Source: Myxococcus guangdongensis (lineage in GTDB: Bacteria > Myxococcota > Myxococcia > Myxococcales > Myxococcaceae). From it: a stretch of DNA of 64,000 bases. The stretch spans positions 62,001 through 126,000 of the forward strand of contig NZ_JAJVKW010000017.1 of the NCBI RefSeq assembly GCF_024198255.1. The letters are read 5' to 3'. Below the pieces are notes generated by a model. That model saw only the letters and a program-made list of their open reading frames with translations. It was not told the DNA's origin and ran no database searches. Of this stretch, positions 33,251-35,782 are shown piece by piece. Numbering within the stretch: position 1 is the first letter of the stretch; every line of letters starts with the position of its first letter. The translations under genes and the position numbers were made by a program.

Positions 33251-33847
33251 TCAGTCCAGGCCGCGCAGCATCTTCGACTGGGCGAAGGCGGCGAGCTGCT
33301 GGGCGTTGAACTTGCCCTGGGCGATGTCGCCCACCGCGGTGGCCGCCGAGCGGACCGTGTCCACGGTGTCCGCGAGCTTGCCCACGTTGGAGGCGCCGTT
33401 GAACAGGCTGCTGACGCCGGCCAGGGGGCCGCCGGCCACCATGGACAGGCCGTTGTCGATGAACTTGTCCGCGAAGGGCTTGGCCAGCTGGCCCAGGCCG
33501 AACGGGAGGTTGTCGAGCGCCTTGCCGACGATGTCCTTGAGGGGGCCGGTGATGGCGCCGAGCGCCTTGTCCAGCAGGCCCGAGACGGAGCTGAGCGCCT
33601 CGGAGACCTTGCCCACCACGTCGCTGAGGCCCTTGGCCAGGCCGCTGAGGCCCTGCGCCAGTCCGCCCAGGCCGCTCAGGCCCTTCGACAGCCCACCGAG
33701 CGCCTTGCCCAGGCCGCCCAGCGCGTTGCTGATGCTGTTGGCCGCCTTGCTGGCCGCGTCCGCCGCCTTGCTCGCGGCGTTGCTGGCGCTGTTCGCACCG
33801 TTCGTGCCGTTGCTACCACCCGCGCCACTGGAGCCGCCGACAGACAT
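33251..33847 (-). CDS. Glycine-zipper-like low-complexity protein
   Basis: A 198-residue protein with no Cys, Trp or Tyr. After a Ser/Gly/Asn/Ala start come Ala/Ser/Lys helices (about 20-45), then about six imperfect repeats of a seven-residue unit of the form GL-x-K/Q-G/A-L-S/G (about 44-80), then an amphipathic helical region ending in a Lys/Arg-rich tail. Spaced glycines on one helix face resemble glycine zippers that pack in membranes or pores. A strong GAGGAAA lies five to six bases before the ATG. It has no classical signal peptide. It follows the 33919-34359 gene by 71 bases on the same strand. I do not recognise the family. Confidence 0.8.
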   Translation of the reverse strand: MSVGGSSGAGGSNGTNGANSASNAASKAADAASKAANSISNALGGLGKALGGLSKGLSGLGGLAQGLSGLAKGLSDVVGKVSEALSSVSGLLDKALGAITGPLKDIVGKALDNLPFGLGQLAKPFADKFIDNGLSMVAGGPLAGVSSLFNGASNVGKLADTVDTVRSAATAVGDIAQGKFNAQQLAAFAQSKMLRGLD

Positions 33848-33918
33848 GGGATTTCCTCGGTAAAAAATGGATACCCGATTATCGGAGGAGTCCTGCGGAA
33901 GTTGCCTCCAAGGTAGGT

Positions 33919-34359
33919 TCAGAGGCGATCAGGCCCTCGGGGGACGTGCTTGAGGAGGGCCTTGCGGGTCTCCTCGTCGACCTCCACCTGGGCCTGGGCC
34001 TGGCCTTCGTCGCCGCGGAGGGCGGGCTTGCCCGCGCTCGGGGCGGGCTTGGACTCGAAGCCGCTGTAGTAGGCCGGCGGGGGACCCAGGCCGAGCTCAC
34101 CCCGGGCGGCGCCGAGGAAGAACTCGCCGACCTCCTCGATGCTGGCCGGCTCATAGCCGGATTGCTTGAGGATTTCGTCGGGGACGACCTGGAGGACGGG
34201 CTCCTTCTCCGGGTGCTGGGCATAGTCGAGGACGAGCTCGACATAGGCGGCCAGCTCCATGCCCACGGACTTCGCGATGCGCTGGGTGTCGGGGTCCGCG
34301 AGCAGCTCGGCGCGGACGTTCTCGACGGGACGCTTGAGGCGGGGCTTGGACTCGGACAT
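33919..34359 (-). CDS. Uncharacterised protein, partner of the glycine-rich gene
   Basis: A 146-residue soluble protein with GGAG eight bases before the ATG. The N-terminal 70 residues are helical (ENVRAELLADPDTQRIAKSVGMELAAYVELVLDYAQHPEKEP), the centre has PPAYYSGFESKPAPS, and the C-terminus is charged (VDEETRKALLKHV). No membrane segment. It is the first gene of a probable two-gene unit with the glycine-zipper-like protein and might keep that protein soluble; this is a guess from context. Confidence 0.75.
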   Translation of the reverse strand: MSESKPRLKRPVENVRAELLADPDTQRIAKSVGMELAAYVELVLDYAQHPEKEPVLQVVPDEILKQSGYEPASIEEVGEFFLGAARGELGLGPPPAYYSGFESKPAPSAGKPALRGDEGQAQAQVEVDEETRKALLKHVPRGPDRL

Positions 34360-34924: not shown

Positions 34925-35782
34925 TCACGGTTGGACGTCGTAGACCTTGCGCACCGTCACCCCGCCCCGTTCGATTTCGACCTCCAGGCGCCGCTGGCTC
35001 TTGAGCAGCATGTACGTCTCCATGGCCTTCTCCAGCGAGTCGAGCGGCATGCCGTTGATGCGCTGGAGGACGTCCCCGTTCTGGAGGCCGAGCTTCTCGT
35101 AGAGCGAGCCCTTCCGGAGGGAGAGGACCTTGAAGCCTTGCGCCTTCCCATCCTTGAACGCCGGCACCATCCGCGCGTCCGAGAGCGTCGATCCGCCCGT
35201 CATGCGCTCGAGGTCGAGATACCGGCCTGGGACTTCGTAGGTGTGCTCCCCCACGCGACGGATGTCCGTGTCCGCGGTCGGCCTCGGCATCGGTGAAACG
35301 GCGCCGGAGGGACCTCCCCGGTCGATGACCTCGCGTCGTCCCTGGACCGTGACGATGACGCGCCCACGCTCGATGGCGACGACCTCCGAGTCCTGGAGCA
35401 CATCGCCCACGCGGAGGCTGCGCACGCGCTGACTGTCCAGGTCCTCGACCGACGCGAGCGACCAATGCGCCTCGCGAGACGTCAACGTCCCCACCAACCG
35501 CGCACGCCGTGCACTGCGGGGCGGGCCTTCCTCCTCCTCGGGGACGTCGTCCGTGCGCAGGGCCACGCCCAGCAACCTCGACAGCCTGTCCTCACTCAGC
35601 GGTGTGCGTGCGGTGCCTTGGGCAATCCGGATGGGGCGCGTGCTCGACGCCTCTCCTCCAGGGACCGGTGCACTGAGTTGGAACTCGGTGAAGACGTGGA
35701 CGATGCGCGACAGCAGGAACGCGACCGCGAGGATGAATGCCCCATGCAACCACCACGAATGCCGCTCGAGCCAATGTCTCAT
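34925..35782 (-). CDS. gspC: GspC-like type II secretion protein with PDZ domain
   Basis: A 285-residue inner-membrane protein with the full GspC plan: short cytoplasmic N-terminus, one transmembrane helix (LHGAFILAVAFLLSRIVHVF, about 13-32), a periplasmic homology region (LVGTLTSREAHWSLASVEDLD and VGDVLQDSEVVAIERGRVIV, about 95-155), and a C-terminal PDZ domain (GFKVLSLRKGSLYEKLGLQNGDVLQRINGMPL). GspC links the secretin to the inner-membrane platform. No other gsp gene is in the window, so it is an orphan copy here. GGAGGAGG lies nine bases before the ATG. Confidence 0.88.
   Translation of the reverse strand: MRHWLERHSWWLHGAFILAVAFLLSRIVHVFTEFQLSAPVPGGEASSTRPIRIAQGTARTPLSEDRLSRLLGVALRTDDVPEEEEGPPRSARRARLVGTLTSREAHWSLASVEDLDSQRVRSLRVGDVLQDSEVVAIERGRVIVTVQGRREVIDRGGPSGAVSPMPRPTADTDIRRVGEHTYEVPGRYLDLERMTGGSTLSDARMVPAFKDGKAQGFKVLSLRKGSLYEKLGLQNGDVLQRINGMPLDSLEKAMETYMLLKSQRRLEVEIERGGVTVRKVYDVQP

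Follow-up and report, generated by a model that had tools for sequence, protein, structure and literature searches.

The gene pair and its conservation

The window analyzed here is a stretch of 64,000 nt from the 11.2 Mb genome of the myxobacterium Myxococcus guangdongensis (contig NZ_JAJVKW010000017.1, positions 62,001 to 126,000), and the subject is a pair of adjacent genes within it, termed A and B. Gene A encodes a small, acidic, helical protein, and gene B, which starts 71 nt downstream of A, encodes a basic protein rich in glycine, alanine and serine. The pair is conserved among relatives, and B lies behind a promoter-like element that it shares with a type III secretion system (T3SS) cluster and with genes for lytic enzymes. 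We propose, with a probability of roughly 0.6, that B, under the control of a sigma factor, is a candidate for export during predation by the predation T3SS of myxobacteria (T3SS*), and that A is its private partner or chaperone. An earlier note, made from the window alone, had described a two-gene unit that could be an undescribed pore-forming or structural system. Both open reading frames (ORFs) are present on the minus strand as it had placed them, with a third-position GC (guanine plus cytosine) content of 0.92 in A and 0.96 in B; rather than undescribed, the system looks like an unrecognized part of a known machine.

In M. guangdongensis there are three A genes, each followed by a B gene. 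A was sought with a profile in 195 genomes of the phylum Myxococcota and with a single sequence in 145 genomes of the order. The profile search found A in 91 of the 195 genomes, namely in 83 of the 96 from its own family, in two from other families of the order and in six from outside the order, and the single-sequence search found it in 83 of the 145. Six of the seven named records matching A were from Myxococcus and one was labelled Comamonas. The adjacency of the two genes, which the earlier note had singled out for checking, held up in other genomes: B was located directly downstream of A on the same strand at 69 of the 70 A loci examined in detail (67 by script; L075 and L097 on recheck), and locus L056 held A without B. 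Among 15 further, more distant loci, 10 had a B with the C-terminal motif described below (L127, L129-L134, L136, L139 and L141), L138 had a B-like gene without this motif, L135 had a B-like gene upstream of A, and L128, L137 and L140 had no clear B. The copies of the pair occupied several distinct neighborhoods, each internally conserved, and there were several diverged B paralogues per genome. Counts of elements and charges refer to 67 pairs, leaving L056 (no B), L075 and L097 outside the set, and the alignments to 49 of the 70 A proteins and 47 of the 67 B proteins.

In tblastn searches A had no match in 72,556 plasmid records (E 0.01) or in 50,697 phage records (E 1), on which ground a phage or plasmid origin was rejected, and the conserved neighborhoods led us to reject a simple toxin-antitoxin module on mobile DNA. 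In Myxococcus, the third A-B pair (L008:4941-10994 and loci L082 and L084-L087) is located near putatively LanB-like genes (cluster c9). B is followed by a small protein without family assignment (c20) in several genomes. A role connected with ribosomally synthesized and post-translationally modified peptides or lanthipeptides was rejected, as the LanB-like genes beside some copies are absent at the like pairs L078 and L080.

B proteins were 127-232 aa long across the 67 loci and highly variable in sequence; in the 47 aligned proteins the invariant positions were M1 and one C-terminal Asn only. The pattern N-x-x-[QEN]-x-x-[AS]-x-x-x-A was found within the last 35 residues of 49 of the 67 B proteins (0.9 in shuffles), and N-x5-A-x3-[AMSV] in the tail of 63 (5.9 in shuffles). 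Judged by its conservation, this C-terminal motif looks like a recognition tail. The seven-residue glycine repeats that had first drawn attention to B were recovered as a 3.5-residue period over residues 39-110, with 0 of 2000 shuffles as strong, and this stretch is not a trait of the family, being absent from the L007 paralogue and from many relatives. The reported lack of Cys, Trp and Tyr in the window B was confirmed. Cysteine is absent from 65 of the 67 B proteins, and the B of L129, about 100 nt downstream of its A, has several. The ribosome-binding site of B is a good one, for which 'very strong' was slightly generous.

B gave Pfam matches below the curated cut-offs only and no NCBIfam match above the cut-off, and the structure model of the window B, with a mean predicted local distance difference test score (pLDDT) of 46.2, was unusable and too poor for a fold search. 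Tape-measure protein, phiKZ internal protein, collagen and rotavirus VP4 were rejected as identities of B, the matches being either below the Pfam cut-offs or PDB matches that resemble low-complexity hits; matches of the latter kind reach E 1.9e-8 against designed coiled coils. The first 15 residues are free of Asp and Glu in 52 of the 67 B proteins. The N-terminal hydropathy peak was 0.48 in the window B versus 3.51 in a lipoprotein, indicating no Sec signal peptide by this test, which is crude compared with a trained predictor. Both N-terminal features are those looked for in a T3SS substrate. B proteins carry cationic amphipathic helices. A transmembrane-like hydropathy (1.6) was reached by five of the 67 and not by the window B (1.09), which lends no support to the pore formation suggested earlier. 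The combination of a hydrophobic membrane hairpin and an SseC match, by which an SseC/YopB-like translocon protein would be recognized, was not found in B; one of the 47 B proteins matched the SseC family weakly (E 0.056).

A proteins were 103-160 aa long, and none of the 70 contained a membrane-like segment (hydropathy 1.6). In agreement with the earlier description of a helical partner of unknown family, the window A had no Pfam or NCBIfam match and its model was helical, with residues 11-90 in blocks of mean pLDDT 76-88, a low-scoring tail and a whole-chain mean of 67.5. No tetratricopeptide repeat (TPR) family, typical of class II chaperones, was matched by any of 49 A proteins (E 0.1), and the fold comparison of A gave one VIA row (Z 2.0, 49 residues, 4.9 Å), which speaks neither for nor against a CesT-like (class I) fold. 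A is small, acidic and encoded next to the putative substrate, as looked for in a T3SS chaperone. The isoelectric point (pI) was below 6.5 in 60 of the 67 A proteins and above 9 in 62 of the 67 B proteins, and the net charges of A and B were opposite in 64 of the 67 pairs. In the five pairs with an acidic B, which come from three lineages, A was positively charged throughout; the exceptions were L089, where both are positive, and two pairs with a neutral A. The net charges were inversely correlated (Spearman -0.59 over the 67 pairs), also over 22 pairs with A proteins less than 60% identical (-0.65, p 0.001), of which 20 had opposite signs (permutation p 0.002). These opposite and co-varying charges suggest that A and B probably bind each other, a moderately supported claim; the earlier 'pore former with chaperone-like partner' is supported in part, by way of the binding partner.

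Features of the A-B locus, in positions of the window
Feature	Position	Strand	Remarks
Gene B	33251..33847	-	198 aa, Gly/Ala/Ser-rich, basic, pI 9.4; candidate T3SS* substrate without a visible signal peptide
Conserved C-terminal motif, B codons 181-191	33275..33307	-	N-x-x-[QE]-x-x-A-x-x-x-[AS]; N181 present in all 47 B proteins of the alignment
Glycine heptad stretch, B codons 39-110	33518..33733	-	period 3.5
Ribosome-binding site of B, GAGGA	33854..33858	-	6 nt to ATG
Promoter-like element of B, GCAAC-N16-CGATAATC	33877..33905	-	end 29 nt upstream of B ATG
Gene A	33919..34359	-	146 aa, acidic, helical, pI 4.9; proposed B-binding partner (chaperone, or immunity protein)

Upstream of the pair, a gene at 34925-35782 matched type II secretion protein C, barely over the cut-off, and gave PDZ-like matches.

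The promoter-like element and its genome-wide set

The gap between A and B carries an element of the form G[CA]AAC(t)-N16-CGA[TGC]AATC, with the CGA placed 32-91 nt before the B start. The relaxed form was found in 62 of the 67 gaps (55 with a spacer of 16 and seven with a spacer of 17) and the strict form, G[CA]AAC-N16-CGANAATC, in 54, against a mean of 0.04 expected from 200 dinucleotide shuffles. The strict element was upstream of none of the 70 A genes and of one of 469 other genes in the same loci, a control set from which weakly called genes and those in positions 0 to +2 had been removed. When spacers of 13-20 were tried, the strict form occurred at 16 (49), 17 (5) and 19 (1) only. The element is present at L018, from the named M. 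xanthus strain AM003, and a later check found it with B at L075. The third B of M. guangdongensis (L008) carries the variant CGATAACT. At L097 (5981-6385), which encodes a diverged A, the partner B lacks the element, yet ends in the conserved tail motif.

Scanning the M. guangdongensis genome with SNAAC-N16-CGANAATC gave 19 sites versus one for the reversed pattern. The reversed-pattern control is possibly biased in a GC-rich genome, and spacing, shuffle and upstream-region controls were therefore added. With spacers of 8-24 allowed in three genomes, 61 sites were obtained, 22 at a spacer of 16, six at 17 and 33 over the other 15 spacers (∼2 each). Fourteen of the 19 sites are counted as leading into genes: 12 have a start 29-79 nt away, and at L145 and L152 the script took an inner start, the likely starts being ∼36 and ∼6 nt from the site. 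The remaining five (L142, L147, L150, L153 and L158) resemble chance matches. Among 36 other genomes, the 18 core-clade Myxococcaceae hold 14-34 sites each (329 in total; reversed control 3) and the other 18 genomes 0-7 each (50 in total; reversed control 9). The scanned genomes are related, and the two groups therefore do not constitute independent tests.

The sites of M. guangdongensis precede two of its three B genes. Further targets are an N-acetylmuramoyl-L-alanine amidase (Amidase_2 and PG_binding), an SLT transglycosylase with LysM and C39-like peptidase domains, a subtilase with a P-domain, two adjacent RTX and Peptidase_M91 ('Effector protein') genes with an element before each (L172:10699-14273), a DUF7689/DUF6209 protein, a DUF2515 protein and proteins without family assignment. 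At the chosen starts the products of the set show no signal peptide (N-terminal hydropathy peak ≤1.5 versus 3.5 in the lipoprotein). Relatives repeat the set in part, with 10 strict sites in genome G118 and 14 in G077. B genes and DUF1521 proteins are behind the element in both; the targets also include a subtilase and an L169-type protein in G118 and an amidase and an Endonuclease I protein in G077, and several sites in the two genomes lead to unassigned or unconvincing ORFs. DUF1521, described in an excerpt of the literature as the autocleavage domain of T3SS-secreted NopE proteins (PMC6506597), is found behind the element in three genomes (L162:9303-10376, in the cluster of M. guangdongensis, L217:1578-2741 and L226:1631-2746). 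As would be expected of a T3SS substrate, B has its promoter element in common with T3SS genes and effector-like genes, and the regulatory grouping of B with the T3SS cluster and the lytic enzymes is strongly supported. Because B shares its element with these genes, the structural fibril or sheet considered in the earlier note is not favored.

The type III secretion cluster and its sigma factor

One of the sites in M. guangdongensis lies 1.6 kb from sctV (TIGR01399, E 1.7e-246), and relaxing the pattern slightly to CGANAAY places four sites in the cluster region (C5:172.9-195.9 kb) and another one 20 kb beyond. Other genes of the region code for TPR proteins, an SctI-like protein, a weakly needle-like protein of 71 aa and a sigma factor of the FliA/WhiG family (TIGR02479, E 3.9e-34, short of the curated cut-off). 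An orthologous sigma factor (62-99% identity) was found in 25 genomes; in each of the 23 genomes where it shares a contig with the best sctV, the distance between them was 15.5-24.9 kb, and in the other two they were on different contigs. An sctV-family match (E 1e-20) was present in 90 of the 91 A-carrying genomes. As control genomes show, flagellar genes of the FlhA type can be among the sctV-family matches below the cut-off.

The 71-aa protein (L162:5518-5730; C5:190517-190732), encoded behind the element, has a weak resemblance to T3SS needle proteins (PF09392, E 0.0022, below cut-off), in a system described as needleless. G077 (L224 and L226-L229) contains tandem, apparently identical 72-aa genes, each preceded by its own promoter-like element; the needle-family match did not extend to two of these relatives. 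In G043, G044, G047 and G048, four to six similar copies of the element line up next to sctV, at intervals of mostly 430-1130 bp and with two gaps of 2.3-2.7 kb, and these rows are perhaps the result of local amplification of a small regulon gene.

In M. xanthus, the T3SS* is encoded by MXAN_2434-2464. According to excerpts of the published work, it has no recognized secretin, needle or translocon, assembles with the Kil pilus at prey contacts and is required for prey lysis (PMC12075869, PMC10433427, PMC10849154). Passages on its effectors call them 'unknown' in a 2023 review (PMC10433427) and 'potential' in a 2025 paper (PMC12075869), and the main text of the latter does not use the word 'sigma'. 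A transcriptome paper reports, in the part cited, that a subset of T3SS genes is upregulated on prey (PMC10196010). A sigma factor named SigF, which may or may not be that of the cluster, is described as upregulated during predation in a review (PMC10849154) and likewise in PMC9548883. In searches over open-licence PMC full texts, no paper came up that names the A-B pair, the element or a T3SS* regulon.

Proposed roles of A and B and comparison with known systems

What the computation shows is the conservation of the pair, the element with its genome-wide set, the linkage of the sigma factor with sctV, the C-terminal motif and the charge complementarity. From these we infer that the cluster sigma factor recognizes the element and that B is exported via the T3SS*. 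B would have a promoter of its own, which the FliA/WhiG-type sigma factor of the cluster would serve alongside those of the lytic enzymes. A would bind B in the predator cytoplasm, keep its sticky, cationic, Gly/Ala-rich helices soluble and present it to the export machine, acting as a chaperone or, less likely, as an immunity protein. B would leave without a signal peptide, most likely through the needleless T3SS* in concert with the Kil/Tad pilus, and, once at the prey, would have the envelope as its target; that it acts on prey membranes is a guess, the best one that the amphipathic cationic helices offer.

Several observations weigh against this proposal. The A model had no Foldseek match at E 0.001 and no PDB match, and the chaperone candidates recognized in the T3SS cluster are TPR proteins, which A is not. 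Five of the 67 pairs (L098-L101 and L105) carry no element, nor does L097; at L100 and L101 the A-B gap is just 6 nt. In the -10 core GATAA the T is present in 28 of the 62 sites, and the -35 consensus G[CA]AACt is unlike the TAAAGTTT of FliA. The G[CA]AAC half resembles -35 elements of the extracytoplasmic function (ECF) type, and another sigma factor could therefore read the element. Genomes with a diverged cluster sigma factor (62-75% identity) hold 0-7 sites, no more than genomes without it; the link between sigma factor and element therefore applies within a single clade, with kinship as a confounder. In genome G156 (82% complete), A and a motif-bearing B are present without an sctV match and without the element in the gap, and an sctV-family match was also found in 35 of the 60 genomes of the order that lack A.

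On the strength of the -35 half, of up to seven sites in genomes without the cluster sigma factor and of the G156 pair, B could be a general stress or developmental protein of the surface or matrix, under the control of another sigma factor and tied to the T3SS* by shared regulation only. This is distinctly unlikely, as sites fall within the T3SS cluster and before lytic enzymes that have no signal peptides. It is very improbable that A is a DNA-binding autoregulator with the element as its operator. This idea stems from a weak resemblance to sigma-70 region 3 (Sigma70_r3 was matched by 11 of 49 A proteins, best E 0.00014), but the element precedes many genes without a neighboring A, in a genome with three A genes, and keeps a fixed promoter-like spacing.

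Two alternatives concern the role of B itself. In a toxin-immunity pair, B would harm membranes and A protect the producer, with delivery by the T3SS*, Kil or another route. A has no upstream element and may therefore be made when B is not, which would suit an immunity protein, as would the binding suggested by the opposite charges and the cationic amphipathic helices of B. We nevertheless consider such a pair unlikely: the paralogous pairs keep conserved neighborhoods, unlike mobile polymorphic cassettes, though B diverges fast, and an A without any membrane-like segment would be unusual for immunity to a membrane toxin acting from outside. Alternatively, B may be no toxin and instead a component of the secretion machine, such as a translocon-like or inner-rod-like piece, apparently missing from the needleless T3SS*. 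The SctI-like protein of the cluster, the needle-like protein behind the element, the one weak SseC match and the presence of A, hence usually of B, in 83 of the 96 family genomes fit a machine part; the several diverged B paralogues per genome and the absence of a classical transmembrane hairpin from the window B do not, and this role, too, is improbable.

A bolder form of the substrate proposal, which we regard as doubtful, makes B, as a sigma-controlled, chaperoned and amphipathic protein, the missing membrane-penetrating end of the needleless T3SS*: delivered via T3SS* and Kil pilus, it would open the prey envelope and admit the amidases, transglycosylases, proteases and nucleases of the regulon. 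If true, a whole antibacterial type III effector regulon would be scattered through core Myxococcaceae genomes. On the main proposal, an injectisome-type system would have substrates under sigma control that target bacteria instead of eukaryotic hosts. The T3SS* turns dead prey into lysed, edible prey, and the element yields a short list of candidate effectors in core Myxococcaceae. The element set also names a candidate regulator and includes a protein family that carries no curated name in the libraries used.

The proposed substrate B and its partner A can be set beside several known systems. Like glycine-zipper pore formers and fibrils, the window B has periodic glycines, but the repeats are not conserved in the B family and no glycine-zipper family was among its Pfam matches. 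A resembles the chaperones of type III chaperone-substrate pairs in being small, acidic and encoded adjoining the putative substrate gene, and differs from them in not being a TPR protein and in matching no known chaperone. HrpL, the sigma factor of the T3SS genes in Pseudomonas syringae, is an ECF sigma factor. In its regulon, as described in part of a published study (PMC4149516), an alternative sigma factor and a common promoter likewise mark T3SS genes, whereas the candidate sigma factor here resembles FliA/WhiG and prey bacteria would be targeted. The consensus given for FliA (sigma-28) in an excerpt, TAAAGTTT-N11-GCCGATAA with 11 nt after the 8-nt -35 half, has the CGA-AA core of its -10 half in common with the element and comes close to it in spacing (16, in seven of 62 sites 17, after AAC); the -35 half differs, as does the T of GCCGATAA in all but the 28 sites mentioned (PMC7286023). 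A further counterpart is the needleless T3SS* of M. xanthus with its Kil/Tad pilus. A comparable cluster in M. guangdongensis contains sctV, an SctI-like gene and genes for TPR proteins, and the T3SS* is, in the excerpts cited, needed for prey lysis (PMC12075869, PMC10433427), in keeping with the cell-wall lytic enzymes among the genes that share the element of B.
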